In this document: in pieces, positions 17,307-55,955 of the stretch
Numbering within the stretch: position 1 is the first letter of the stretch
How the letters are laid out: every line of letters starts with the position of its first letter
Source of the DNA: Solen grandis
Taxonomy: Eukaryota > Mollusca > Bivalvia > Adapedonta > Solenidae
Reading direction: 5' to 3'
Length of the DNA: 64,000 bases
Assembly: GCA_021229015.1 (NCBI GenBank)
Contig: CM037789.1
Coordinates: 40,708,926 to 40,772,925, forward strand
Notes under the pieces: generated by a model
Told to the model about the DNA's origin: nothing
Databases searched by the model: none
The model's input: the letters and a program-made list of their open reading frames with translations, nothing else
Program-made: the position numbers and the translations under genes

Positions 17307-18539
17307 TCAATATTTCCTGAAGCGTTTTGTGTTTTTGATGTATTTATGGACAGCATTTACTATACTTATGTTGTCTTCTTGAGAAATGGTTACATCTCCG
17401 TTAAGAAGGAGATTGCAATTTAAAGGATGCAAATGTCTTGTTTCTTGGAATAATTGGATACGTTCATTATTGTATTTTTTACATCGAAATAAAAAGTGCT
17501 CGGCATTTTCAGGTACATTACAATATGAACATAAATTATTTTCAGTAACATGGTTAAGGAATAAATCATTCTTCAGGTCACTACAATTATTACGCATTCT
17601 GGTGTGTAACACAGATAAATGACGCGTCCCGTGAAGAAAATGAGCAGGTACATAAGAGGGAGAGAACATATGTTGGATTAATTTATGTTTGAATGAGCCA
17701 ATTGACTGAATGTTTCTAAGTGAAATAGGCAAAGAGTTCCATAAATCAATTGATGCAGGAACAAAAGACTTTTCAAAAAGTGTTGTTCTTCTGTGAATAC
17801 CTATGAAGTCATTATTGCTTCTGAGGTTGTAACTAATACTTTCGTTAACGGGTCTTTGAAAGAGGCTATTCAGATAATCAGGTACCATATTATTTTTTAT
17901 TTTAAACATTAACATAATTGTCTGGTATGTTCTTCTCTCACTTAGAGTTAGCCAACCAGTTTCTTTATATAGATTGTTCAAACTGATGGAACGCGTGGTA
18001 CCAGTGACTATTCTACCTGCTTCAATTTGTAATTTCTCTATTTTTTCTTTATCATATTCCGTGCAGTTATCCCATACAACGGAAGCGTACTCAAGAATTG
18101 GACGTAGGAATGATACATATATTTGATTTAGCGCTTTGCGTTTTACAGTAAATTTTAGTTTTCTCATGATACCAATTATTTTGGATGCAGATTTTATGAT
18201 ATTATTTGTGTGTGCGTGCCATTTACAATCACTGCTTAAAGTAATACCTAAATGTTTGTGGGTATCTGAGATAGATAGGATGTTATCATCAAAATTAAGA
18301 ATAGGCGGTTGCTAATTTCCAAAATATAAAACTTCAGTTTTTTCAGGATTAAACGTCACCAACCATTGTTTAGACCACCTTAAAATTTCTTTTAGATCGT
18401 GGTTCAGTATTGCTCCTAAATCTGCAGTATTTGAAGATGTAGCCGCTAAAGATGTGTCATCTGCGAACAATCTCGTAATACTCCTTAAATTATCTGTTAT
18501 GTCATTTACATAGATCAGGAAAAAGAGAGGACCCAAGAC
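17307..18539 (-). pseudogene. non-LTR retrotransposon (jockey/CR1-like) RT C-terminal part, cut by gap
   Basis: The minus strand encodes the RT from GPLFFLIYVNDI through the catalytic LFADDTSL (FADD) and the NPEKTEVLYFGN motif. One in-frame TAG follows at 18312-18314, then the frame stays open for about 330 codons to a stop at 17307. This second part holds the RT thumb (LGITLSSDCKWHAH), the LRPILEYASVVWDN motif and a C-terminal Cys/His cluster (LCSYCNVPENAEHFLFRC). The upstream RT and endonuclease are lost in the assembly gap. Only one stop interrupts what remains, so the insertion is fairly young. Clade assignment is tentative. Confidence 0.85.
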
Positions 18540-18639
18540 NNNNNNNNNNNNNNNNNNNNNNNNNNNNNNNNNNNNNNNNNNNNNNNNNNNNNNNNNNNNN
18601 NNNNNNNNNNNNNNNNNNNNNNNNNNNNNNNNNNNNNNN
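18540..18639. other. assembly gap (100 N)
   Basis: Exactly 100 N, the conventional placeholder for a gap of unknown size. It directly abuts the left end of the first copy of the tandem duplication. Confidence 0.99.
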
Positions 18640-18841
18640 TAACAGAACTATGAGGAATAATGAACTTAACGGGAAAAGCAGGATATTTGCCTATACAAAA
18701 GTGTATTTACATGTAAAGAATGAAACAATGAAAATAGCTCTCATTAAAACTCAATATTGCATCAACACAAAATTTAATGTTGTTATTTTCTTTATATGAT
18801 GCCTGGACAATTTCCATCTAAATACTCATAGAATTACCTAC

Positions 18842-20335: not shown

Positions 20336-21569
20336 TTAATTAAGATCGTACACCAGTATTTCATTTTGATGAATGTTTGTCACAATCAGTTTCTTATTAC
20401 TTGGATCAAAGCTCAATGATGTAGGATACTTCAAACCATCTTCCTGGGTCAGGACTACACCCAGCTCCTCACCATCCGCCCCTACCTGGACCACATTGTG
20501 GGAGTCATACCCACACAGGAACATTCCGCCCCGTCCGTCTGCACAGACACCCCGCCAACCCTTCATCTGTGTACCTGTGTACCTGTACAGTTGTGTCCCT
20601 TTCCTGTCTGTACAGATAAGTCCCATGAACATATCTGCTATGTAGATCCTCTCTCCACTGACGGTCAGGCCTCTGATATTTGTGAGTATTTTCTGGCTGA
20701 TCGTCTGCAGCAATGTTCCGGACAGGTTGTACACATACACTTTATTACGCTTGTCCGAAACAAACAGTTCCCCGTCACTATAAGCAATAACATAACAATC
20801 ATAATTCAGCTTTACTGTCTTTGCTGGGGTCATTGTCTTACCTACAGACACAAACTGTAACTCGTATTCAAGACAAATGACCACTTCCTGTGGCCCTACA
20901 CAACACATTCCATAGGGACGACACGGCAGGTCACAGTGGTCTGTAACAGTGTAGGTGGAGCTGTCCAAAAGCTTCAGTCGCTTATTCTTGATGTCGATAA
21001 ACATAATTGCATCATCAGACAGAAGACATGTACTTTGTATGTGACACGTGATTCTGTCTTGAGGTAATTTAACTTTGACCTTTGACACGCCTGTTACCTT
21101 ATACGAAGTGATACGCTTGTCTGGTTTCACATGAATGTCTCTTTTGTCGGTGACTTCCTTTGCAGTTGTCATTAACTTCTGTCCCTTCTTCATGGAGACA
21201 AACAACTGGGGCTTGTTCTCAGATGTCGTATCCAACTGTTGAATACAAGATATGGTGTCTCTTTCCAGCTGATCACAGCATTCCTGATCCTCGTCAAACT
21301 TGAACCTGTTCTCGCTGTACCAAACATTGATCTCTCCTACAGCTATCTCTTCAAGTGATTCAACTATCTTAATGATCTTTCTCTTCTGCTGTTCCACCAT
21401 ATCCAGATATTTCTTTTTCTCATTCAGCAATTCTTCCCCTGTCATGTTACGTATATTCTTCTGTGTCGCCAGTCTCTTTCGTGTTCTCCCAAGACCGTCT
21501 ATAGTCTCTTGTAGCTCTTGTAAGAGGTCGTCAATGTCGCCAGGGATAAACTTGACCTCCTCACAGGAT
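20336..21569 (-). CDS. TRIM-like (B-box/NHL family) 3' exon, unit A
   Basis: An intact open exon of 410 codons on the minus strand. It starts at the acceptor ATTCCAG/ATCCTGTG (first base 21569) and ends in TAA at 20336. The order is: SCEEVKFIPGDID, completing the second B-box; a coiled-coil-like region (EELLNEKKKYLDMVEQQKRK...); then a six-bladed NHL-like propeller from about residue 150 (GELFVSDKRNKVYVYNLSG, GERIYIAD.F.GLICTDRKG, PTSLSFDPSNKKLIVTNIH). Such proteins are E3-ligase-like adaptors, often linked to innate immunity. The B-box exon expected upstream (about 27.6 kb) is absent, so this unit may be a 3'-only copy or be spliced from the exon at 36764. Confidence 0.8.
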
Positions 21570-22340
21570 CTGGAATGATAGTATCTTGCAAGTTCATCTG
21601 TATTCAGAAACTGAGTCATCTGCCAGAATGCAATAGTTGTATACAAGTACTCTTTTGATAATATAAGTCACGTCATCCTTATTCTCTATTCTTTTACATG
21701 CTTTCTTATTACAATACAAATTGACATCCGATAACCACTCTCTGTATATTTTGTATTAATATACTTCGTAATACTAAACTGAGAACATACAATTATAAAA
21801 TACTCTCTCCCCACCCCCACCCCCTCTCTATCTCTCTCTCTCTCACACACACACACCCGAACTATTTCTCTTTAAAACACTATCTCTCTCTCTCTATATG
21901 TACTATTGAATAAATAAATAAATAAATTACTGAAACAATATAAAGCTATTATACCTAAATCTTATTTCTTTGCTTCAAAAACATTTGGTTAAACTGTTGT
22001 TGTTTTCAAACTTATGAGGTTGTGTTCACAAACCATGTCTCGGCCCCCCCCCCCCCCCCCCCACACACACACACTGGGGCACACAGTGACATATACTTCA
22101 TTTGCTTAGAAATAGTAGATCTACCATGATTTCAGTTACCAAAACATTAGTTCACTTTTGCAAATAAGGAATACAATATTATTTTTCACATGTAAAAGAA
22201 TAATTAGGATAACAAGCAACAGGTAAGCCCTGTGTGGTTAAGTACCGTCCGAATTTGTGGGCTTTGTGTTTGACTTTCTCTCATCAATTTCTTCCCATAA
22301 CAGAAAATTTGTTTCAATAGCTTAATTAGAACAGGAGTTA
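21570..22340 (-). other. intron-like sequence with microsatellites
   Basis: CT/CA repeats at 21812-21855 and a poly-C run then CA at 22046-22074. The minus-strand open frame continues ~25 codons past the acceptor but is intronic, as shown by the conserved CAG/ATCC junction in all three units. Confidence 0.6.
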
Positions 22341-29362: not shown

Positions 29363-30594
29363 TTAATTAAGATCGTACACCAGTATTTCATTTTGATGAA
29401 TGTTTGTCACAATCAGTTTCTTATTACTTGGATCAAAGCTCAATGATGTAGGATACTTCAAACCATCTTCCTGGGTCAGGACTACACCCAGCTCCTCACC
29501 ATCCGCCCCTACCTGGACCACATTGTGGGAGTCATACCCACACAGGAACATTCCGCCCCGTCCGTCTGCACAGACACCCCGCCAACCCTTCATCTGTGTA
29601 CCTGTGTACCTGTACAGTTGTGTCCCTTTCCTGTCTGTACAGATAAGTCCCATGAACCTATCTGCTATGTAGATCCTCTCTCCACTGACGGTCAGGCCTC
29701 TGATATTTGTGAGTATTTTCTGGCTGATCGTCTGCAGCAATGTTCCGGACAGGTTGTACACATACACTTTATTACGCTTGTCCGAAACAAACAGTTCCCC
29801 GTCACTATAAGCAATAACATAACAATCATAATTCAGCTTTACTGTCTTTGCTGGGGTCATTGTCTTACCTACAGACACAAACTGTAACTCGTATTCAAGA
29901 CAAATGACCACTTCCTGTGGCCCTACACAACACATTCCATAGGGACGACACGGCAGGTCACAGTGGTCTGTAACAGTGTAGGTGGAGCTGTCCAAAAGCT
30001 TCAGTCGCTTATTCTTGATGTCGATAACATAATTGCATCATCAGACAGAAGACATGTACTTTGTATGTGACACGTGATTCTGTCTTGAGGTAATTTAACT
30101 TTGACCTTTGACACGCCTGTTACCTTATACGAAGTGATACGCTTGTCTGGTTTCACATGAATGTCTCTTTTGTCGGTGACTTCCTTTGCAGTTGTCATTA
30201 ACTTCTGTCCCTTCTTCATGGAGACAAACAACTGGGGCTTGTTCTCAGATGTCGTATCCAACGTTGAATACAAGATATGGTGTCTCTTTCCAGCTGATCA
30301 CAGCATTCCTGATCCTCGTCAAACTTGAACCTGTTCTCGCTGTACCAAACATTGATCTCTCCTACAGCTATCTCTTCAAGTGATTCAACTATCTTAATGA
30401 TCTTTCTCTTCTGCTGTTCCACCATATCCAGATATTTCTTTTTCTCATTCAGCAATTCTTCCCCTGTCATGTTACGTATATTCTTCTGTGTCGCCAGTCT
30501 CTTTCGTGTTCTCCCAAGACCGTCTATAGTCTCTTGTAGCTCTTGTAAGAGGTCGTCAATGTCGCCAGGGATAAACTTGACCTCCTCACAGGAT
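29363..30594 (-). pseudogene. TRIM-like 3' exon, unit B, two frameshifts
   Basis: Near-identical to unit A's exon (1232 versus 1234 nt) but with two one-base deletions: one in TCGATAACAT at 30021-30030 and one in CCAACGTTG at about 30262. Both break the frame, separating the coiled-coil part from the propeller part. The acceptor ATTCCAG/ATCC at 30594 is kept. Whether these are true mutations or sequencing or consensus errors cannot be told from one sequence. Its own B-box exon, at 36764-37091, is also damaged, which favours a pseudogene. Confidence 0.8.
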
Positions 30595-31369
30595 CTGGAA
30601 TGATAGTATCTTGCAAGTTCATCTGTATTCAGAAACTGAGTCATCTGCCAGAATGCAATAGTTGTATACAAGTACTCTTTTGATAATATAAGTCACGTCA
30701 TCCTTATTCTCTATTCTTTTACATGCTTTCTTATTACAATACAAATTGACATCCGATAACCACTCTCTGTATATTTTGTATTAATATACTTCGTAATACT
30801 AAACTGAGAACATACAATTATAAAATACTCTCTCCCCACCCCCACCCCCTCTCTCTCTCTCTCTCACACACACACACCCGAACTATTTCTCTTTATAACA
30901 CTATCTCTCTCTCTATATATGTACTATTGAATAAATAAATAAATAAATTACTGAAACAATATAAAGCTATTATACCTAAATCTTATTTCTTTGCTTCAAA
31001 AACATTTGGTTAAACTGTTGTTGTTTTCAAACTTATGAGGTTGTGTTCACAAACCATGTCTCCCCCCCCCCCCCCACACACACACACACACTGGGGAACA
31101 CAGTGACATATACTTCATTTGCTTAGAAATAGTAGATCTACCATGATTTCAGTTACCAAAACATTAGTTCACTTTTGCAAATAAGGAATACAATATTATT
31201 TTTCACATGTAAAAGAATAATTAGGATAACAAGCAACAGGTAAGCCCTGTGTGGTTAAGTACCGTCCGAATTTGTGGGCTTTGTGTTTGACTTTCTCTCA
31301 TCAATTTCTTCCCATAACAGAAAATTTGTTTCAATAGCTTAATTAGAACAGGAGTTATCTTCCGGTCAA

Positions 31370-36734: not shown

Positions 36735-36763
36735 AAGCAAATCCTACTTTCGATTTCACCTAC

Positions 36764-37091
36764 CTATGATCCATAAAGGCGCATGTATTGCAGGTATTGC
36801 AAAGAACTTCATTGTGCTTCTTGTACCACAGTTCAATCATTTTCTGACCATGTCGTCGGCATTTTTCCGTTGGCATGACAACCCCACAGCTTGCGCCCGA
36901 CGGTTCCACCAGGGTTTGATCCTCCATATAATCGTTGTGTTGATCCAAACAGGAAGTACATAGGTACTTGTGACACTCCTGACAATATTTCACAGCCTCG
37001 CTGACCCGGTTCTTCTTACGACACACGGGGCAGGTGTAGTCAAATGTTTCTTCGGATACCTCAAATAGTCCGGAGACACCAGTTGTGTTAC
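36764..37091 (-). pseudogene. TRIM-like B-box exon, unit B, start codon lost
   Basis: Minus-strand exon between the acceptor TTTCTCAG (37092-37094 side) and the donor ATAG/GTAGGT at 36764/36763. It encodes the tandem B-box part (TCPVCRKKNRVSEAVKYCQE..., TEKCRRHGQKMIELW). Compared with unit C it has a 12-bp deletion that removes the ATG, a Cys-to-Tyr change at the third zinc ligand of the second B-box (LWYKKH instead of LWCKKH), and a 9-bp internal duplication giving CNTCNTC. It would splice in frame to the exon at 30594. Probably non-functional as a zinc-binding B-box protein. Confidence 0.8.
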
Positions 37092-37990
37092 CTGAGAAAC
37101 ATTGAGGGAAATAAATTTAGGTAATATTTCTCTTTGAACAAAGAGTTATCGGACGTGCAGTCCTATTTATTAATGTGACATATTGAGGGAAAAGGGTTAC
37201 GCACAATGCTTTGAAATATTTATAAAGTATCAGTTTCTTTGATAAAATCAAAGTTGTTTTATCTGAAAGGGGGTTATAGTGCACGTTTCAACTTTTATTT
37301 CATCATTAAGCTTATATTATAAATATACAGAACAAGAACTATCACTGTTAATGACATATGCTCACCCCCTCCCCCCTCCAAATAAAAAAAGAGTTGCTTT
37401 AACAAAGAACTGTTTTGTCAGTTTAGCAGATTTTAGCACATACTTGATGTACACTAGACTTGTGCGTTCCTTGGAAAACCGGTTAAACGTGTGTCCCCTT
37501 CCCAATAGCTCTATCAACAAAGGGAAGTACCTCAAAAATATTAATGTTAAGAGTTATTGGTCTTGTAATCAGCACTTTGTTGATCTTCTTGACTGCTTTA
37601 TACATTTTATGAAGTTATCGCGTACCCTCTACTTAAACAAATATATAAAAACTGCACTATTACGTACACCCTGCGATTTCCATATTTTATAGAAACCTAA
37701 TCTGCTAAGAATAACTTAACATTCGTTGATCAGCATTGTTTTGATGGGTATCTTTACATATCTTCTAACATAACATTATATATCATGTTAACTAGTATAA
37801 TTTATGATATTACAACCTTAAGCAGGTATTTTATCATATTAATTACACCCTAAGAATAGAAACATAGACGGTCAGTTACACAGTAAATTAATTCATTTTT
37901 GGTGCTATTTTTTAAGGCCAAGAACGTATTTCATGAAATATATGTTTGTAGTATTTCAATTGAATTTTGCTTTGAAAGAAAAAAAAAATA
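37092..37990. other. 5' flank of TRIM unit B, no gene
   Basis: Homologous to 55115-55965. Probable location of a non-coding first exon and promoter, but no TATA or initiator could be picked with confidence. Confidence 0.4.
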
Positions 37991-40885: not shown

Positions 40886-40891
40886 GTTTTA
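40886..40891. repeat. target-site duplication, left
   Basis: GTTTTA directly before the AGTAGTA terminus. An identical 6-mer follows the right terminus at 48346-48351. Six bases is the length made by Polinton/Maverick integrases. Confidence 0.9.
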
Positions 40892-40989
40892 AGTAGTATA
40901 GGGGCCTCTTTAGGTGTAAACAAACTTGACCTACTTTCTAGGTAGGCGGCCAGTTTTTTTTTGTGCTCTGTTTTTTTAATATATTTATT

Positions 40990-41180
40990 TAGGTGCGGCC
41001 TTTTGTTTTTAATAACTATTTGCATATAAGCGTTTAAGGGTGTGCGCATGTGCGGCGGCCTTTTTTTTTAATAACTCATTTTTTAAGGGTTGTGCGCATG
41101 TGCAGCGGCCATATTGAATTTTTAGGGTATCTAATTTGCATATAAGAGTTTAAGGATAGTGCGCATGTGCGGCGACCATA
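40990..41180. repeat. subterminal tandem block with TGTGCGCATGTGC boxes
   Basis: Three copies of a 50-68-bp unit. Each has a TTTAAGG-type segment, an NRF1-like GTGCGCATGTGC and a GCGGCC or GCGACC box; the boxes are at 41041, 41091 and about 41159. The right arm has the unit once (48216-48239, GGCCGCCGCACATGCGCAC). The CGGCGGCCAT/ATGGCCGCC parts look like YY1 sites. Host-factor binding is inference. Confidence 0.7.
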
Positions 41181-41592
41181 TTAGTGGTCATTTGCTTGGT
41201 TATAGTATACAGAGGTGACTTGTATACTCGATCTGAGATCTACTCGCGGAAATTGAGGGTCACTTCCATTCGATCTCAGACCTTGGTATTCTTTTAATAG
41301 TAATAATTAATTTACTAAGCAACAACAAATAATAATAACAATAATATTAATTTTAAAAATCACATCAATAATAATAATAATAATTAAATATATAGAACAT
41401 TCATAAAAAATAGGATGATAATATATATCAACTAGGTCTAAATACTAATGCTCACCTTTTACGATGCTGACTCTTCAACGTCCTACCTTCGAATGAATCG
41501 AGTGCAACTATTGCTTCAGTTCAACTGTTTAAATACGCAGATCTGGTGCTTTAAAAGGGGGGTTATTTTTAGGATGGAACAAAAGCGATATT

Positions 41593-41850
41593 GATTTAGG
41601 GACGGAAATGCGAACAATGGGGTATTCAACTGTCAAAAGTTAATCCCTTTAAAGTCGCCACTCTGTCTGGCGTGTGTTGATTTAGGGACGGAAATGCGAA
41701 CAATAGCCCTTTCAAGTGTCAAATGTTAATCCCTTTAAAGTCACCACTTTGTCTGGCGTATATTGATACAGGAATGGAAAGACGAACAATAGCTTTTTTG
41801 TTAGACACTATTGGTACGTAAATTGTAGTTAGCGGATTGAAAATTCAACC
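41593..41850. repeat. 86-bp tandem repeat, three units, in left arm
   Basis: GATTTAGGGACGGAAATGCG starts at 41593 and 41679 and a diverged copy (GATACAGGAATGGAAAG) at 41765, an exact 86-bp step. Each unit continues with AATCCCTTTAAAGTC and TGTCTGGCGT. Three mirrored units are in the right arm at about 47520-47725. Confidence 0.85.
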
Positions 41851-43265
41851 AATCAGAATCCTCCCTTTTCACCCAATCAGGAACGAGTCCTCGACCAATC
41901 GAATCTCAGCATTTTGTGACCAATCAGAATCGCGTATCCAGAACGAGGCTCAGGTCTGATTCACATCTTAAGTTTTCAGAAATTATGGGTAGCATAAAAT
42001 ATATTATAATACATAAAGTGAACATTTTTCATTACAGCTTTTTAATAAAAACGCATTTAAATTTCAGATTTTTCCCAGCCTAACATCTTTCTTGTACATA
42101 TAATCAATTGACATAATAGAATTTAATGAAAATAATTAAGTTAATTATAATAATAGGAATCTACTGAAAATACTATCACATTAGCGTCTGATCACTTTGA
42201 TGAAAAATCGACTTACCAAATTGTTAACTTTCAAATTAAATCTTTCAGTCACCATTCCAATTTATATTATGTTGCTTTTTAGTATATTTTCTGCATGAAA
42301 GCATTGATGAAAAATCAACTTACCAAATTGGTAAACCTTCCAGTCACAATTCCAATATATATATGTTGCTTCTTAGTATCTTTTCTGCGCTAGAGTGGAC
42401 ATGAATGGTCAAGTTTATACATGACTTCGACTCCTTGTAAGGGCCCAGTACCATTTATACGTCAATATTGGTTGACTTGAGATCGGATTAAGATAGCCCT
42501 ACAAAGGGAGCTGACCAATGTTTACGTTAATCCTTAGCTTTACCTAGATAACGGATTAAATATCTCCCAGTTGCACGACTTTTAGAGGGAGTTAGAATAA
42601 GGGTTATAAAGCGATGTAGGTATCTATATATTCTGTTAAACTACGAATATTTGTTAGTGTAATACTTCAAAATAATCGGAATTCTTTAAACTTTAAAACC
42701 GTAATGTTCATATTTTCTATATTGGTTGAAACAACAACAAAATAATAAAAGAGCTTAAATCAGTTTTTCCTGTCTAGTGCAACCGTTTACGATATTGATT
42801 TTCACAATTTTTAATAATTGTATTTATCAAAATATTAAAAAAAATTTTCAACCGTTACTGAGTTATGACGTAACAGCGATTTTTAAACCCAATTTTCAAC
42901 TTTCTCAAAAGATCGTGTTTCATATACCGTTGGAAAGGTATACCTTTATAGGGTTATCTTTATTCGTTCGCGAGATATAAGCGTTTGAAAAATGTCACGT
43001 GACCGAAAAATGGCGTCAAATATTCTCCACAAAATATATTTAAGGCTATATCTCAGTCATTTCATGACCGATTTGCGTGATCTTGGTATAGATAGAAAGG
43101 TCTCACTTCAAGCTATGTTTTGAATTCAATAAACCGGAAGTGTATTGGTGGTATAACCGGAAATGACGTCATCACATATAAAATCTCTCTTCATAGACAA
43201 CCGTCTGACTCGTTATTGGTCGTTCTCTCTCTCTCTTATACATACTAGATTCGGTGGATATGAAA

Positions 43266-43540
43266 CACCCCCTCCTCCTCTTCCTCCCTCCTCCTCCTCT
43301 TCCTCCCTCCTCCTCCTCTCACTCCCTCCCTCCTCCTCATCCCTCCTCCTCCTCCTCCCTCCTCTCCCTCCCTCCTCCTCTCCCTCCTCCTCATCTCCCT
43401 CCTCCTCTTCCTCCTCCTCCTCCTCCTCTCCCTCCTCCTCCTCATCTCCCTCCACCTCCCTCCTCCTCCTCCTCTCCCTCCTCCACCTCCCTCCTCCTCC
43501 CTCCTCTCCCTCCTTTCCCTCTTCCTCCCTCCTTCCCTCG
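43266..43540. repeat. (CCTCCT)n polypyrimidine tract, left arm
   Basis: Almost pure CCT/CCCT over ~270 bp. The corresponding GGA tract in the right arm (45889-45990) is ~100 bp. The G-rich strand could form quadruplexes or triplex DNA. Pro/Ser-rich, Leu-rich and Glu/Arg-rich open frames across it are artefacts. Confidence 0.9.
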
Positions 43541-43547
43541 AAATATT

Positions 43548-43565
43548 GTAAGAATAAGCGAGTAT
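43548..43565 (+). promoter_or_regulatory. candidate core promoter motif, copy 1
   Basis: GTAAGAATAAGCGAGTAT, 37 bp before the ATPase ATG. It differs in one base from the sequence 40 bp before the 112-aa gene. It overlaps the inner boundary of the left repeat. Function inferred from position and conservation only. Confidence 0.5.
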
Positions 43566-43584
43566 GTAAATCTACATTGACAGA

Positions 43585-44775
43585 ATGTACAATTGTACTA
43601 TATGTGATAAAGTCTTTTCTAGAAAAGACAATATGCTTAGGCATCACAATAGAGTTCACGATAGTCGTGAAAATGAACGATTGGAAAGGGGTGAAAATGA
43701 CGCGATACAAACTGTTCATAATCAGAAAATGACATTTAAACACCCGTTTACTATGGTCATATCGGGACCCAGTTCTAGCGGTAAAAGCGAGTGGACCAGA
43801 AGACTTTTTCTGTCATATTTGATTGAACCATGGCCAGAAAGGATTATATTTTGTTTTGGACAATGGCAATCTATGTACAAAGAACTCGAAAAAAGTTTTC
43901 CATTCATCGAGTTTGTTCACGGTATACCGGACCATATCGACAATCCAAGATATTTGGACATAAACAAAAGAAACCTTATAGTCTTTGATGACCTGATGAC
44001 AGAAGCGAAATGCGACCAAAGAATTGCTGATATCTTTACGCGCGGTAGCCATCACCGAAATTTGTCGGTCATTTTTTTGACCCAAAACTTATTTCCTCAA
44101 GGTAAAGCATGCCGAGATATCGCCCTTAACACGCAGTATTTGGTCCTATTTAATAATCCGATAGACAGACAACAAGTGACGACCTTGGCTAGAAGAATTT
44201 ATCCATCAAACAGTAACCTACTTATAAAGAAATTTGAACAAGCGACTTCTAAACCATACGGTTACTTGGTCATAGATCTGAAAGCGAACACGCCGGAACA
44301 GGACCGTTTGCGTACCGACATATTCAAGAAAAATGATCCTAAAAGAACATATTTGTTGCCATCAGATATAAAATCTGAACGTGACAGTGACTCTGAACTT
44401 GGCAGTGACAGTGATTCTGGTTCTATATATAACGAAGATGATGACCTAAATGGTAAAAAAAGGATCGCCACTTTCAACGGACCACCCGGTAAAAGATTTC
44501 GCGAAGACCTTCAAGAGCAGCAATCGCTTAAACGCATATGGGACAGGCGCTTTAAGGAACCTTTAAGGAAGTCTAATCAAGAACGGTTCGAAAAAGAGGT
44601 GAACGAATACTTGGAGAAAGGATACTCGCAAAACGAGGCCGTATCTCGTGTTGCTAATGACTCATTGCTCCAGCTTCGTAAAGAATTGAGAAGAGACTAC
44701 GGAAATTTTTTGATAGACTTTTATGGGTTACAACAAGATGTTACGCAACAACAAATAATACAATCAGCGTATTAA
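43585..44775 (+). CDS. C2H2-finger/A32-type DNA-packaging ATPase of the Polinton
   Basis: 396 aa, starting at the first ATG after the repeat boundary. Residues 4-25 form a C2H2 finger (C4, C7, H20, H25; CTICDKVFSRKDNMLRHHNR). Residues ~55-250 are a FtsK/HerA-superfamily ATPase: Walker A GPSSSGKS at 61-68, Walker B LIVFDD at 131-136 and a polar FLTQN strand near 164-168. The family pumps genomes into capsids of adenovirus-like and nucleocytoplasmic viruses and is a hallmark of Polintons. A Ser/Asp/Glu-rich stretch (about 265-290) and a basic, helical C-terminal ~100 residues are extra. The finger fusion could confer recognition of the element's own DNA. ORF intact, no frameshift. Confidence 0.9.
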   Translation: MYNCTICDKVFSRKDNMLRHHNRVHDSRENERLERGENDAIQTVHNQKMTFKHPFTMVISGPSSSGKSEWTRRLFLSYLIEPWPERIIFCFGQWQSMYKELEKSFPFIEFVHGIPDHIDNPRYLDINKRNLIVFDDLMTEAKCDQRIADIFTRGSHHRNLSVIFLTQNLFPQGKACRDIALNTQYLVLFNNPIDRQQVTTLARRIYPSNSNLLIKKFEQATSKPYGYLVIDLKANTPEQDRLRTDIFKKNDPKRTYLLPSDIKSERDSDSELGSDSDSGSIYNEDDDLNGKKRIATFNGPPGKRFREDLQEQQSLKRIWDRRFKEPLRKSNQERFEKEVNEYLEKGYSQNEAVSRVANDSLLQLRKELRRDYGNFLIDFYGLQQDVTQQQIIQSAY

Positions 44776-44793
44776 CTTAGATGGGAACACAAC

Positions 44794-44940
44794 ATGAATT
44801 TCCCCGATTCAATACGGCAAGCAGTAAAACTAAGAAAAGATCTTTTTACAGAAATATGGCCTAATCACGTGACAAATGAAAGTGATGATGAAAGTGAAGA
44901 AGAGCAAAAGTACAGCGAAAGTAATCAGGAGAATGCGTAA
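44794..44940 (+). CDS. 48-aa acidic protein of the Polinton, unknown
   Basis: A short ORF 18 bp after the ATPase stop. The N-terminal half is amphipathic (FPDSIRQAVKLRKDLFTEIW) and the C-terminal half is strongly acidic and Ser/Asn-rich (ESDDESEEEQ). Its stop codon lies inside the second candidate promoter motif. The tight packing between intact genes supports reality; no family is recognised. It could be translated from the ATPase transcript by reinitiation, or be a remnant of a larger gene. Confidence 0.5.
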   Translation: MNFPDSIRQAVKLRKDLFTEIWPNHVTNESDDESEEEQKYSESNQENA

Positions 44941-44954
44941 GAATAAGCGAATAT
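44937..44954 (+). promoter_or_regulatory. candidate core promoter motif, copy 2
   Basis: GTAAGAATAAGCGAATAT, 17 of 18 bases identical to 43548-43565 and 40 bp before the ATG at 44977. An AATAAA follows at 44968-44973, which may serve as poly(A) signal for the upstream unit. Confidence 0.5.
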
Positions 44955-44976
44955 CTGTTTGAAACTAAATAAAATC

Positions 44977-45315
44977 ATGGGCTCGATAGAAGTATATGAT
45001 GCGCAACAACAAAAATGGGTTCCTCATAACCCTGACCCCGAGGTGTTGTATCAGCATTTAAAAGATTTGAGGGACGGGTACGTTCAACCCGACCACCTTG
45101 GACGATATTTTATAGGGAGCGGTAGATTTAATAGACAAATAGCCGAAATGAACAAACAAAAAGAAAATCCCATTGTAAATCTAGTGACACCCGTGGCACA
45201 AGCCATTGAAATAGCAAAGTCCGAACTAGAACGAGCACGCGATTCTCCTAAAAAGAAAAAACCGTATGAAAGACCAAAGAATTATCTGAAGGATTGGAGA
45301 AAAACCAAATACTAA
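44977..45315 (+). CDS. 112-aa basic-tailed protein of the Polinton, unknown
   Basis: Start chosen at the first ATG (44977); the open frame extends a few codons upstream without ATG. It begins with a short hydrophilic part (YDAQQQKWVPHNPD). A central Gly-rich motif (GRYFIGSGRFNRQIAEMN) follows, then an amphipathic helix (PVAQAIEIAKSELERA) and a Lys/Arg-rich tail (SPKKKKPYERPKNY...). The basic tail suggests nucleic-acid binding. It is followed after 5 bp by the protease, so both probably share a transcript. The position beside ATPase and protease fits a small virion-associated protein, but I do not recognise the family. Confidence 0.65.
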   Translation: MGSIEVYDAQQQKWVPHNPDPEVLYQHLKDLRDGYVQPDHLGRYFIGSGRFNRQIAEMNKQKENPIVNLVTPVAQAIEIAKSELERARDSPKKKKPYERPKNYLKDWRKTKY

Positions 45316-45320
45316 AAACG

Positions 45321-45743
45321 ATGAACAATATCGAGCTCGAACAATTACTGAAAGGATATCCAGTGAGTGTGCATTTTGCCGATGAAGTTGAAATAAAAAG
45401 AGGAAATTTTGTTATTTCAAATACGATTAAAACAGGAGAACGTGGACAACATTGGGTGGTTTTCTATTTCCCGCGAAGGGGACCGGACGAATTCTTCGAC
45501 TCTTTAGGACGTAATCCAGAATTTTACCACGTGGACTTTGAAAAACGTTTAAAAATGCCCTATTTTATGAACTGTAGTCAAATACAAGACAGTGACTCAG
45601 ATGTGTGTGGGCTATATTGCGTGTATTATGTGCTTAATAGATTTGCCAAAAGATCAATGAAAGATATTGTAAAGCCTTTTGACGTGAATAATAAGCCATA
45701 TAATGACAAACTTGTCGCTAAATTGCTTGAAACTATATTGTAA
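45321..45743 (+). CDS. adenovirus-type cysteine protease (adenain-like) of the Polinton
   Basis: 140 aa from the ATG at 45321. Catalytic residues in family order: His44 (GQHWVVFYF), Asp60 (FFDSLGRNP), Gln87 or Gln89 (NCSQIQDSD) and Cys96 (SDVCGLYCVYY). This is the C5/Ulp1-like fold used by adenoviruses and Polintons to mature capsid proteins. Length is somewhat short for the family (about 200 aa in adenoviruses), but all active-site positions are present. The start lies 5 bp after the preceding stop. The AATAAA at 45774-45779, about 30 bp after the stop, is a likely poly(A) signal. Confidence 0.88.
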   Translation: MNNIELEQLLKGYPVSVHFADEVEIKRGNFVISNTIKTGERGQHWVVFYFPRRGPDEFFDSLGRNPEFYHVDFEKRLKMPYFMNCSQIQDSDSDVCGLYCVYYVLNRFAKRSMKDIVKPFDVNNKPYNDKLVAKLLETIL

Positions 45744-45773
45744 ATGTGTTTGTATGTCGAATATTAATATGAA

Positions 45774-45779
45774 AATAAA
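45774..45779 (+). terminator. poly(A) signal of the Polinton gene cluster
   Basis: AATAAA 30 bp after the protease stop, followed by T-rich sequence and the right repeat arm. Confidence 0.55.
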
Positions 45780-45815
45780 ATTGACAAAAGTATTACCTGT
45801 TTTTCTTATCTTTAT

Positions 45816-45856
<41 letters not shown>

Positions 45857-45870
45857 GATATAATGTCACA

Positions 45871-48345
45871 TATTCTAACAATATTTCGAGGGAAGGAGGG
45901 AGGAGGAGGAGGAGGAGGGAGGGAGAGGAGGGAGGAGGAGGGAGGAGGAGGGAGGGAGAAGAGGAGGAGGGAGGAAGAGGAGGAGGGGGTGTTTCATATC
46001 CACCGAATCTAGTATGTATAAGAGAGAGAGAGAACGACCAATAACGAGTCAGACGGTTGTCTATGAAGAGAGATTTTATATGTGATGACGTCATTTCCGG
46101 TTATACCACCAATACACTTCCGGTTTATTGAATTCAAAACATAGCTTGAAGTGAGACCTTTCTATCTATACCAAGATCACGCAAATCGGTCATGAAATGA
46201 CTGAGATATAGCCTTAAATATGATTTTGTGGAGAATATTTGACGCCATTTTCCGGTCACGTGACATTTTTCAAACGCTTATATCTCGCGAACGAATAAAG
46301 ATAACCCTATAAAAGTATACATTTTTGAAATCGGCATGAGGAGACCTTTCCAACGGTATATGAAACACGATCTTTTGAGAAAGTTGAAAATTGGGTTTAA
46401 AAATCGCTGTTACGTCATAACTCAGTAACGGTTGAAAATCGAATCGAGAACATAGGGTTTATTTTGAAGTATTTTGATAAATCTATCAATTGATATAAAA
46501 ATTGTGAAAATCAATATCGTAAACGGTTGCACTAGACAGGAAAAACTGATTTAAGCTCTTTTATTATTTTGTTGTTGTTTCAACCAATATAGAAAATATG
46601 AACATTACGGTTTTAAAGTTTAAAGAATTCCGATTATTTTGAAGTATTACACTAACAAATATTCGTAGTTTAACAGAATATATAGATACCTACATCGCTT
46701 TATAACCCTTATTCTAACTCCCTCTAAAAGTCGTGCAACTAAGAGATATTTAATCCGTTATCTAGGTAAAGCTAAGGATTAACGTAAACATTGGTCAGCT
46801 CCCTTTGTAGGGCTATCTTAATCCGATCTCAAGTCAGCCAATATTGACGTATAAATGGTACTGGGCCCTTACAAGGAGTCGAAGTCATGTATAAACTTGA
46901 CCATTCATGTCCACTCTAGCGCAGAAAAGATACTAAGAAGCAACATATATATATTGGAATTGTGACTGGAAGGTTGGATTTGGAAGTTTTCAATTTGGTA
47001 AGTTGATTTTTCATCAATGCTTTCATGCAGAAAATATACTAAAAAGCAACATAATATAAATTGGAATGGTGACTGAAAGATTTAATTTGAAAGTTAACAA
47101 TTTGGTAAGTCGATTTTTCATCAAAGTGATCAGACGCTAATGTGATAGTATTTTCAGTAGATTCCTATTATTATAATTAACTTAATTATTTTCATTAAAT
47201 TCTATTATGTCAATTGATTATATGTACAAGAAAGATGTTAGGCTGGGAAAAATCTGAAATTTAAATGCGTTTTTATTAAAAAGCTGTAATGAAAAATGTT
47301 CACTTTATGTATTATAATATATTTTATGCTACCCATAATTTCTGAAAACTTAAGATGTGAATCAGACCTGAGCCTCGTTCTGGATACGCGATTCTGATTG
47401 GTCACAAAATGCTGAGATTCGATTGGTCGAGGACTCGTTCCTGATTGGGTGAAAAGGGAGGATTCTGATTGGTTGAATTTTCAATCCGCTAACTACAATT
47501 TACGTACCAATAGTGTCTAACAAAAAAGCTATTGTTCGTCTTTCCATTCCTGTATCAATATACGCCAGACAAAGTGGTGACTTTAAAGGGATTAACATTT
47601 GACACTTGAAAGGGCTATTGTTCGCATTTCCGTCCCTAAATCAACACACGCCAGACACTAGGGCGACTTTAAAGGGATTAATTTTTTGGCCTTTTCGCGT
47701 TTCCGTCCCTAAATCAACATGGCTATTGTTCTATCGCTAAAAATAGATATTGTTAACGCAGGTGGCCTGGGAATCAAGTGCACTAGTTGAGAAATGTCAT
47801 TTATAAAAATAGCTGTCACTTAGCTCGAGTCTCATTTGAGCAAAAGACGCCGAGGAGTCAACATCGTAAAGGTGAGCATTAAAGTATTTAGATATATTTT
47901 TTTATATAATTTATTTCATCTTTATTAATGTTGGATCGTGTTTTGTTTTTATTAATGTTCTAGATATTTAGTTAATGATATTATTATTATTATTTTTGTT
48001 ATTATTATTATTATTATTGTTAATAATATTATTATTATTATTACATGTATTAGATATACATTATTAATTACTATATCAAAACATAAAAGGGTAGATATTA
48101 TTATATACCAAGGTCTGAGATCGAATGGAAGTGACCCTCAATTTCCGCGAGTAGATCTCGGGTCGAGTATACAAGTCACCTCTGTATACTATAACCAAGC
48201 AAATGACCACAAATATGGCCGCCGCACATGCGCACTACCCTAAAAGCCTTATATGTAAATGAGTTACTATAAATAGAAACAAAATGGCCGCCTACCAAGA
48301 AAGTAGGTCAAGTTTGTTTACACCTAAAGAGGCCCCCTTACTACT
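45871..48345 (-). repeat. right terminal inverted repeat of the Polinton
   Basis: Inverted copy of 40892-43556, beginning at TATTCTAACAATATTTCGAG and ending GGCCCCCTTACTACT. It has a shorter GGA tract and only one NRF1-like unit. Extra pieces absent from the left arm lie at about 46310-46345 (GAAATCGGCATGAGGAGACC) and 46440-46475. Divergence between the arms shows they have not been homogenised recently. Confidence 0.9.
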
Positions 48346-48351
48346 GTTTTA
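48346..48351. repeat. target-site duplication, right
   Basis: GTTTTA, identical to 40886-40891. Confidence 0.9.
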
Positions 48352-49101: not shown

Positions 49102-49104
<3 letters not shown>

Positions 49105-50425
49105 CTCGAGATCGTACACCAGTATTTCATTTTTATGAATGTTTGTTACAATCAGTTTTTGATTGCTTGGATCAAAGCACACTGATGTAGGATAGTTAGG
49201 ACCATCTACCCGGGTCAGGACCACACCCAGCTCCCGACCATCCGCCCCTACCTGGACCACATTGTCAGATGTAAAGCCACACAGTAACACTCCGCCCAGT
49301 CCGTCAGCACAGACCGCGTAGCAACAATTCATCTGTTTACCTGTGTACCTAAACACCTGCGTCCCTTTCCTGTCTGTACAAATAAGTCCCATGTTCCGGT
49401 CCGCTATGTAGATTCTGTCTCCACTTACGGTCAGCTGTCTGGTACGTGAAAACATTGCCTCACCTGACGGGGTCTGGCTGATTGTCTGCAGCAGTGTTCC
49501 GGACAGGTTATACACATACACTTTATCATTGCCGTCCGAGACAAACAGTTCCCCGTCACTATAAGCTATACCAAAACAATCATGATTCAGCTTAACTGTC
49601 TTTGTTTGAGTCATTGTCGTACCTACAGACACAAACTGTATCTTGTAATCAAAATAAACGATCACTTCTTGTGGCCCCACACAACACACTCCCCAGGGAC
49701 GCCCAGACAGGTCACAGTGTTCTCTAACGGTGTAGGTGTTTCTGTACAACCGCTTCAGTCGCTTGTTATTATAGTCGGTCAACAGAATTGTACCATCAGG
49801 TAGAAGGCATGTGCCTTGTATTTGACATGTGTCTGAGTCTCGAGATAATTTAACTTTGACCTCTGACACGCCTGTTACCTTATACGGAGTGTTACGTTTC
49901 TTGAACGACCCAAGAGACCGTCGAACAGCCAGGTACGTTTCTATGTCATTGTTCACTTCATACTCTTTGTCCGGTTTCACCTTAATGTTTCTTTCATTAG
50001 CGAGTTCATTTGTAGTTGTCAATAACTTCTGCCCCTTCTTCATGGAGACAAACAACTGGGGCTTGTTCTCAGATGGTGTATCCAACTGTTGAAGACAAGC
50101 CATGGTGTCTCTTTCCAGCTGATCACAGCAATCCTGATCCTCGTCAATCTTGCTCCTGTTCTCGCTGTACCAAACATTGATCTCTCCTACAGCTGCCTCT
50201 TCAAGTGATTCAACTATCTTAATAATTTTTCTTGTCTGCTGTTCTACCATATCCAGATATTTCTTTTTCTCCTTCAGTAGTTCCTCCCCTGCCAGACTCC
50301 GCTCATTCTTCAGTGTCGCAAGTCTCTCTCGTGTTCTCCTCAGACCGCCTATAGTCTCTTGTAGCTCTGCATCTTGTAATAGGTGGTCGATGTCGCCAGG
50401 GATAAACTTGACCTCCTCACAGGAT
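49102..50425 (-). CDS. TRIM-like (B-box/coiled-coil/NHL) protein, unit C, exon 2
   Basis: Minus strand, fully open from the acceptor TTTCAG/ATCC (first base 50425) to TAA (49102). Joined to 54784-55100 it gives 547 codons exactly (546 aa plus stop). The split Arg codon AG/A completes MDHRSCEEVKFIPGDIDH. A coiled coil (about 110-200: LLKEKKKYLDMVEQQTRKII) precedes a linker and an NHL-like propeller (about 250-546: GELFVSDGNDKVYVYNLSG, GDRIYIADRNMGLICTDRKG, PTSVCFDPSNQKLIVTNIH). Compared with unit A's exon it is 30 codons longer (an ETYLAVRRSLGSFKKRN insert and an SGEAMFSRTR loop). No RING finger. Likely a cytosolic adaptor or E3-like protein of the bivalve TRIM expansion. Confidence 0.88.
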
Positions 50426-50722
50426 CTGAAATGATAGTTTGTATCTTAATGCATATTTATCTGTATTCAGAAACTGAGTCACCCATAGACGAGACACAGC
50501 CTGAATCTGTCCCAGAAGGCACATTTGTATACTTTTTTGATAATATAACTCATGGCATCCCTTACCCCCCATTCTTTTACATACTTTCTTATTAGTATCA
50601 CAATAAAAATAGACATCCCATAACCACTCCATGGCTAGTTTATATTGATGTGCTTTGAAAGATTAAACTGAGAACGTGCAGTTATGAAATCCGTTTTTCA
50701 CTCTCTCTCACTTCTTCTCTTC

Positions 50723-54471: not shown

Positions 54472-54783
54472 CTTTCAGTCCTGAAAACCCTTATTTTCTC
54501 TCATTCCTTTAAATATATGAAGTTAATATGCATTGAAATGATTGTTTAAGCAATTAAAATTAGTTACTAAATGGCACACTTATTGGATCAATTGGGGTAA
54601 TATACATGTACCATACAAAAACAGGACAGAACATACAGTACATAGTAATATGAATCCAGGTAAAATGCGGTGCTCGCTTCGAGGCTTTGCCTTTGCTGGT
54701 AATAAGGGTATAAAGACCTTCATGTACCTACGATGACAGAAATGTAAGATGGCTTCCTAAATCCTACTTTCGTTTTCACTTAC

Positions 54784-55114
54784 CTATGATCCATAAAGGC
54801 GCAGGTATTGCAAAGAACTTCATTGTGCTTCTTACACCACAGTTCAATCATTTTCTGTCCATGTCGTCGGCATTTTTCCGTCGGCATAACTACTCCACAA
54901 CCAGCGTCCGACGGTTCCACCAGGGTATGATCCTCCATATAATCATTGTGTTGATCCAAACAGGAAGTACACAGGTACTTGTGACATTCCTGACAATATT
55001 TCACAGCCTCGCTGACACGGTTCTTCTTGCGACACACCGAACAGGTGTGGTCAAATGTTTCTTCGGATACCTCAAATAGTCCGGAGACACCAGTCGCCAT
55101 GTTTGTTGTGTTAC
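54784..55114 (-). CDS. TRIM-like protein, unit C, B-box exon with start codon
   Basis: Minus strand. The acceptor TTTCTCAG precedes 55114, there is a 14-nt leader, the ATG is at 55100-55098, and the donor ATAG/GTAAGT follows 54784. Residues 1-106 carry two zinc-binding boxes. The first has C20, C23, C36, C39, C44, C47, H51 and H58. The second is a textbook B-box 2: C77-x2-H80-x8-C89-x2-H92-x4-C97-x2-C100-x4-H105. The exon joins in frame to 50425. A non-coding first exon further upstream is implied by the acceptor. Unit C is the only TRIM unit here with an apparently complete coding sequence. Confidence 0.88.
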
Positions 55115-55955
55115 CTGAGAAACATTGAGGGAAATAACTTTAGGTAATATTTCTCGTTGAACAAAGAGTTATCGTACGTGCTGTCATTTGACCTATTTAT
55201 TGATGATAACGCAAGATAAGACCAAAGAATGTGACATACTGAGGGAAAAGGGTTACGCAATTCTTTGAAATATTTATAAAGTGCCAGTTTCTTTGATAAA
55301 ATCAAAGTTGTTTTATCTGAAACAGGGTTATAGTGCACGTTTCAACTTTTATTTCATCATTAAGCTTATATTATAAATATACAAAACAAGAACTGTCACA
55401 ATCAGTGACATATGCCCCCCCCCCCCCCCAAATTTGCTTTAAAAAAGAACTGTTTTATTATTTTAGCAGATTGTAGCACATACTTGATGTACATTAGACT
55501 TGGGCGTTCCTTGGAAAACTGGTAAAACGTGTGTCCCGTACCTAATAGCTCTATCAACAAAGGGAAGTAACTCAAAAATATTAATGTTAAGAGTTATAGG
55601 TCTTGTAATCTGCACTTTGTTGATCTTCTTTATTGCTTTCTACATTTTAATGAAGTTATGGCGTACCCTCTACTTCAACAAATATATAAAAACTGCACTA
55701 TTTCCTACACCGTGAGATTTCCACATTTTATAGAAACCTAATCTGCTAAGAATATTTTAACATGCTTTGCCAAGCATTGTTTTGATGGGTATCTTTCCAT
55801 ATCTTCTAACATAGCCTTTATCATGTTAACTAGTATATTTTATGACATGACAGCCTTAAGCCAGTATTTTATCATATTAATTACACCAAAGAATAGAAAC
55901 GTAGACGGTCAGTTTCACAGTAAATAAATTCATTTTGGATGCGTGCTATTTTTAA
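55115..55955. other. 5' flank of TRIM unit C, no gene
   Basis: Homologous to 37092-37900. Contains a poly-C run at 55415-55429. No promoter motif is clear enough to call. Confidence 0.45.

Follow-up and report, generated by a model that had tools for sequence, protein, structure and literature searches.

How can a Polinton-like element persist that encodes enzymes for the packaging and maturation of a virion and holds no intact gene for copying, inserting or enclosing its own DNA? The question is raised by a 7454-bp element in the genome of the bivalve Solen grandis (assembly GCA_021229015.1, contig CM037789.1), at positions 40892 to 48345 of a 64,000-nucleotide stretch, referred to here as the window (forward strand, positions 40,708,926 to 40,772,925 of the contig). 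A preliminary description, made from the letters of the window alone, had suggested a satellite-like lineage that brings its own packaging ATPase and protease, and the analysis reported here supports that suggestion. In our judgement the element probably belongs to a lineage of helper-dependent, satellite-like Polintons ('S-type'), maintained by selection, which would use the ends and the polymerase of a resident PolB-carrying Polinton and contribute packaging and maturation genes of its own. This reading draws directly on complete ends with target duplications, on many copies in the same genome, on a conserved three-gene cassette, on the pattern of selection and on termini held in common with PolB-carrying elements.

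Ends and genes of the element

The element is a whole insertion and its coordinates are exact. AGTAGTA... termini, in inverted orientation, abut the two copies of GTTTTA that form a perfect 6-bp target duplication, so that the preliminary description was right in calling the element complete. Inverted termini with a 6-bp duplication are also what is found in Polintons (Mavericks). Where termini of about 100 bp had been described, the inverted arms proved to be about 2.4 kb long; roughly two thirds of the element is arm, and the core of about 2.5 kb holds three plus-strand genes, encoding in this order an ATPase, a protein of 112 amino acids (aa; counted from the conserved start) and a protease. 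Of the four genes originally proposed, the ATPase and the protease thus stand, while the two small proteins reduce to one. The remaining open reading frames (ORFs) of at least 100 aa are of low complexity or overlap an arm.

The ATPase matches PF02456 (26.9 bits) and PF04665 (25.7 bits), both above the cut-off, and its N-terminal C2H2 zinc finger (PF00096) scores just above it. It is an FtsK/HerA packaging ATPase of the kind carried by Polintons, truncated by a stop in the window copy. A second Polinton trait, an adenain-like protease, was recognized by its fold: the structural model (pLDDT 93) has the adenovirus 8 protease as its best match (E=3.4e-5), and the profile match to PF00770 (E=0.013) falls below the cut-off. 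The residues invariant across 19 aligned protease sequences include His53, Asp69, Gln98 and Cys105, which, as in adenain, would be catalytic. The model of the small protein is of moderate confidence (pLDDT 72), and no viral fold matched it in the fold search. Its conserved GSG motif fits the adenain cleavage rule of adenovirus, [MIL]xGx-G. The strict form of the motif occurs in 53 of 120 homologues (mean of shuffled sequences, 4.8) and the looser form [MILVF]xGxG in 104 of 120 (shuffled mean, 8.1); the small protein of the window begins the motif with F and satisfies the looser form but not the strict one.

As had been noted from the sequence, no PolB, integrase or capsid gene is visible. None of the PolB places listed genome-wide lies inside the element. 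The core has no intact ORF left that could hold an RVE integrase and, beyond the cassette, none of a size suited to a double jelly-roll capsid protein and a penton protein; these two negatives concern intact ORFs, as no profile search of the element's DNA for integrase or capsid remnants was made. The element thus falls short of a full Polinton and is non-autonomous: its termini are of the Polinton type and it has kept morphogenesis enzymes, but it lacks intact genes for PolB, integrase and capsid.

Copies, conservation and selection

The genome (1.32 Gb in 811 contigs) was searched with the first 409 bases of the element; the best 40 of 595 candidates were scored, yielding 60 matches, and 20 surrounding stretches were examined. 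In 11 of the 20 the ends are complete and flanked by a perfect 6-bp duplication, the hexamer differing from one element to the next, while nine (L032, L038, L042, L043, L044, L046, L047, L049 and L050) did not pass this test. The 11 complete relatives and the window element are alike at 38-40 of the 40 terminal positions and measure 3.4-7.5 kb. A 29-base terminal pattern matches the genome 62 times in forward and 68 times in reverse orientation, 130 in all, and its reversed control not once. Chance is excluded by this pattern together with the distinct perfect hexamers. All three genes are present in nine of 21 elements (the window element, L035, L037, L039, L040, L043, L044, L045 and L050), whose core pieces are 96-99% identical to those of the window, apart from two pieces at 95%. 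The arms, which form subfamilies, are far more variable among copies than the core.

Separate searches were made with the two enzymes. After second pieces of one copy had been merged, the best 105 of 1708 ATPase candidates gave 103 places and the best 150 of 646 protease candidates gave 147. A protease on the same strand lies 0.9-2.8 kb downstream of 89 of the 103 listed ATPase places: 56 of 60 in the close class (at least 78% identity), 24 of 30 at 65-74% and 9 of 13 at 55-61%, each place being classed by how identical its best listed piece is, which puts one fragmentary close-class copy into the 65-74% group. Eighteen close-class places match all 396 ATPase residues (one from residue 2) within a stop-free frame of at least 430 codons, and the protease follows in 17 of them. 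At a locus of the third class, L059, the ATPase, the small protein and the protease stand in identical order, at 54, 44 and 45% identity to their counterparts in the window. The cassette is a conserved unit across three divergent classes, and the element, far from being unique, belongs to a maintained family with dozens of copies. A private internal deletion, which had been considered, is ruled out by the many copies and by the presence of the cassette in three classes. Among the listed places there are also some nine proteases at 45-46% identity with nearly equal scores, mostly in frames of 148 aa and with no listed ATPase within 6 kb, which look like a separate young family.

Protein-alignment dN/dS is distorted near frameshifts, and differences that are private to one copy were therefore compared with those shared by at least two. 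The comparison took in the window element together with 11 copies and was limited to sites that lie clear of gaps and are represented in six or more of these sequences. Of the private differences, 113 are non-synonymous and 36 synonymous, a ratio matching the neutral expectation of about 2.8; of the shared ones, 13 are non-synonymous and 25 synonymous (Fisher p=3.4e-6 against private). Taken gene by gene, the effect is detectable in the ATPase (p=0.001) and in the small protein (p=0.008); of the two enzymes for which the preliminary description had envisaged such a test, the protease alone gives no significant result. With this reservation, the element resembles satellite viruses in having conserved genes of its own under selection. 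A purifying pattern of this sort would be expected of genes that are needed for propagation and decay after insertion; alternatively, shared sites may have spread by recombination between elements.

Database homologues at E<=0.001 number 571 for the ATPase (best 120 listed), 126 for the small protein (best 120 listed) and 18 for the protease, and several clusters of the first two have hundreds of members. The closest listed homologues of the ATPase (P0001, 75%) and of the small protein (P0121, 71%) are each on a contig of 2069 bases, probably one and the same. One ATPase homologue (P0014), filed under a metagenome bin of Candidatus Thiodiazotropha, is probably host DNA carried over into that bin. 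No match to the element was found among IMG/VR viral contigs.

Long relatives with the same ends

None of the 103 listed ATPases lies near a listed PolB. This had been considered as proof that the two are separate and was dropped after a failed control, in which the 150 listed PF04665 ATPases likewise proved not to be near listed PolBs. Non-adjacency in best-of lists is for that reason weak evidence by itself, and a table of terminal pairs was used instead. The listed places of these Pox_A32-type (PF04665) ATPases have frames of mostly about 200-260 aa, and none is within 25 kb of a listed PolB.

The census of termini took in 100 of the 130 places, on contigs C1-C13. It yielded 35 facing pairs of ends, of which 29 are short (1.2-7.55 kb) and six long (14.9-21.5 kb), with none in between. 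The long relatives with the same termini that the preliminary description had thought of looking for do exist, and they carry PolB: relatives, at least 91% identical, of the PolB of locus L053 (PF03175, E=2e-44) occur in all six long pairs (among the best 41 of 1548 candidates), whereas none of the 29 short pairs contains a place from either of two PolB lists (Fisher p=6e-7). Conversely, a listed ATPase is present in 15 of the 29 short pairs (p=0.027) and a listed protease, fragments counted, in 19 of them (p=0.005), and neither occurs in any of the six long pairs. This table draws on 54 of the 103 ATPase and 57 of the 147 protease places; on the three contigs that carry the six long pairs (C1, C2 and C6), places of all classes were checked (22 ATPase, 32 protease), and none lies in a long interval or within 2 kb of one. 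The long intervals also contain no listed PF04665 place (best 150 of 429 candidates; places on the same three contigs) and none of 31 PF02456 matches (best 111 of 129 candidates scored); the genome search with PF00770 gave no match anywhere and is uninformative about the long elements. The exact pattern leaves 30 ends unpaired, three of them (C6:6596330, C2:5109724 and C6:66774058) less than 13 kb from an L053-type PolB. Termini are thus common to the element and to PolB-carrying elements of the same genome, as in non-autonomous derivatives: the 29-bp termini of the long element at C1:92.66-92.68 Mb are identical to the left end of the window element, and positions 191-409 of the window element find a 95% match in one end of the long element at C2:22.68-22.70 Mb. 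In addition, a young PolB family distinct from that of the long pairs was seen, with some 40 places that score almost equally and have open frames of up to about 1280 aa.

The complementary contents of long and short pairs might also be those of a two-segment virus, in which a PolB element of 15-21 kb would provide replication and an element of 5-7.5 kb packaging and maturation, the two being mutually dependent halves of one genome that share ends and packaging repeats and integrate independently. The absence of any listed ATPase, protease, PF04665 or PF02456 place from the long intervals is in line with such a bipartite animal Polinton, and viruses of the bidna class that have several segments and an adintovirus-type PolB are described in PMC11071296. 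We nevertheless consider this reading rather unlikely. A divergent ATPase or protease could be present in the long elements, given that PF04665 was followed only in the best 150 of 429 candidates and PF00770 is uninformative, and these elements are large enough, at 15 kb or more, to accommodate a complete set of Polinton genes. Moreover, short pairs outnumber long ones by 29 to 6, a more satellite-like proportion, although the pattern was taken from S-type ends.

A more ordinary explanation is that the S-type is an internally deleted form of the long type, moved passively, its genes kept by accident. The termini shared with the long elements would agree with this, as would the further shortening of many copies: in 10 of the 29 short pairs both a listed ATPase and a listed protease are missing, and hairpin-like fragments occur. 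Accidental retention, however, accords poorly with a gene content and gene order that three divergent classes have in common, with purifying selection at shared sites, with the lack of any listed ATPase or protease in the six long relatives and with the empty range between 7.55 and 14.9 kb among the 35 pairs, and this explanation appears improbable. It is still harder to credit a self-sufficient minimal element whose long, hairpin-forming arms would let host polymerases copy it and which would use the cassette only for packaging, for although arms have been copied end to end repeatedly (L031, L032, L033, L038, L045 and L047) and five loci have divergently oriented proteases 4-5 kb apart, the element has no replication protein of its own and its termini match those of PolB-carrying elements in the same genome.

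The helper-dependent satellite would work as follows. Its ends match those of resident elements of 15-21 kb with a protein-primed PolB ('L-type'), whose polymerase would replicate it in trans. Protein-primed replication of the Polinton type starts at the ends, and a PolB produced by another source can accordingly copy an element whose ends suit it. Insertion would probably also be effected in trans, by a presumed L-type integrase. The S-type would supply its own packaging ATPase, the zinc finger of which may recognize repeats near the ends, much as in adenovirus a packaging protein binds repeats close to one end. It would further supply the maturation protease and a small basic protein, probably a substrate of that protease, and its DNA would enter particles built of capsid proteins from the L-type or from another virus. 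The long arms may be regenerated when one end is copied onto the other, as by a displaced strand that folds back on itself. In all this, replication and integration in trans, packaging, the capsid donor and the roles of the zinc finger and the repeats are what we infer.

Several observations weigh against the satellite reading. The ATPase of the window is broken by one in-frame stop after codon 396, beyond which homologous sequence continues in the same frame; the packaging genes, which the preliminary description had called intact, are therefore not so in this copy, while the cassette as such is conserved in three classes. In nine other copies the site is read through in frame in seven, none of which has the stop, and two are frameshifted earlier. 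Frameshifts, stops or deletions affect the full-cassette copies in general, and in each of the nine at least one of the three frames is disrupted. For the protease taken singly, which has only three shared changes, selection is not significant (p=0.55), and in the fold search the scores of bacterial deubiquitinases of the same kind are close to that of adenain. The counts come from the best of each list (105 of 1708 for the ATPase, 150 of 646 for the protease, 41 of 1548 for the L053 PolB and 100 of 130 for the termini), the terminal pattern derives from S-type ends and favours the S-type, and the long elements were read at their ends and PolB only, so that a divergent ATPase or protease there could escape the queries. 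To these is added the failed PF04665 control.

Layout, surroundings and known systems

The coordinates of the features are collected in Table 1. Comparison of the two arms shows that the outer part of about 0.8 kb is diverged and gapped and the inner part of about 1.6 kb mostly 99-100% identical, with some gaps. The divergence of 40892-41700 from 47619-48345 next to a nearly identical inner 1.6 kb is the opposite of the outcome expected from homogenization that starts at the ends. Pieces of the 5' end of the ATPase gene or of the 3' end of the protease gene lie in both arms of L031, L032, L033, L038, L045 and L047, and the arms of these sequences appear to have been copied end to end; these gene-end pieces (at L045, 2759-3128 and 4177-5576) give a snapback-like signature of arm formation. 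The divergent protease pairs are at C4:21.79 Mb, C5:28.68 Mb, C16:41.93 Mb, C19:45.73 Mb and C4:25.32 Mb; they belong to more distant classes, in which the arms seemingly bear a protease gene at each end.

Two of the three D6 repeats in the left arm are within four mismatches of a 24-base motif of the GTGCGCATGTGC type, of which one to three copies are present at 23 of the 24 ends of the 12 complete elements, about 100-270 bp from the end. From the adenovirus analogy these repeats may be regarded as a candidate packaging signal.

Table 1. Features of the element and its immediate flanks (window coordinates; inner boundaries of the arms approximate)
Feature	Position	Strand	Remark
Left target-site duplication	40886-40891		GTTTTA
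Left inverted arm	40892-43363	+	Diverged from right arm over outer ~0.8 kb, mostly 99-100% identical farther in
Terminal repeat, three copies around GTGCGCATGTGCGGCGGCC	41032-41182	+	Family D6; candidate packaging signal
C2H2 zinc finger and FtsK/HerA-like packaging ATPase	43585-44775	+	396 aa to in-frame stop
54 in-frame codons past the ATPase stop	44776-44937	+	Homologous to C-terminus of relatives
112-aa protein	44977-45315	+	Basic C-terminus, adenain-site-like GSG motif
Cysteine protease	45321-45743	+	140 aa, adenain fold
Right inverted arm	45894-48345	-
Terminal repeat copy near right end	48212-48235	-
Right target-site duplication	48346-48351		GTTTTA

Around the element, the window contains near-identical copies and paralogues of one gene (20336-21667, 29363-30692, 49102-50445, 36760-37116 and 54780-55139), which we take to be of the B-box/coiled-coil/NHL-like (TRIM) type. 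An ORF on the minus strand at 17307-18647, with a masked stretch, is presumably reverse-transcriptase-like and part of a LINE.

Among known systems, the S-type resembles non-autonomous DNA transposons of the MITE (miniature inverted-repeat transposable element) type in having shared ends and many short copies without a transposase of their own. In contrast to the element, MITEs are not known to keep protein genes under selection. With virophages and other satellites that carry morphogenesis genes it would share the reliance on a helper combined with particle-assembly functions of its own. Unlike the element, virophages have genes for capsid proteins and for replication proteins of their own (PMC11071308). 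If the genome were split in two, the element would be comparable with bidnaviruses and segmented bidna-class viruses, in which an adintovirus-type PolB and other genes are on separate linear DNAs; the parvovirus-like capsid and the helicase given for bidna-class viruses in PMC11071296 were not seen in the element. The same source lists, from a clam dataset, Adomavirus tegillarca5526, which is similar by description only, being clam-associated and having an FtsK/HerA-like ATPase and a zinc-finger protein, and which differs in RepE1, Histoid and virion-protein genes of its own. No description of a lineage such as the S-type was found in the literature covered, including passages of PMC11071296, PMC10294476, PMC11071308 and PMC4028283; since this coverage omits most subscription journals and Repbase, it does not follow that the lineage is undescribed.

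The closest comparison remains that with Polintons, which share the inverted termini, the 6-bp duplication, the FtsK-like ATPase and the adenain-like protease and, in this genome, the termini of PolB-carrying elements. Polintons are 15-20 kb long, as against 7454 bp for the element and 1.2-7.55 kb for the short family, and the element differs further in the want of an intact PolB, integrase or capsid gene, in the zinc finger of its ATPase and in its 2.4-kb arms. In a Polinton survey (PMC4028283), nine elements without capsid genes also lack both ATPase and protease, which was read there as concerted loss; the element described here keeps ATPase and protease without a capsid. Polintons encode genes for capsid morphogenesis, and particles have not been observed, as stated in PMC8097293. 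When selection preserves packaging and maturation genes alone in a lineage, this is evidence that Polintons are really packaged. The element would represent either an animal Polinton's satellite or, should the cassette genes be missing from the long elements, one part of a split genome. It is tempting to speculate that, were the bipartite reading true, the two types would together represent a multipartite double-stranded DNA virus living as two families of transposons.

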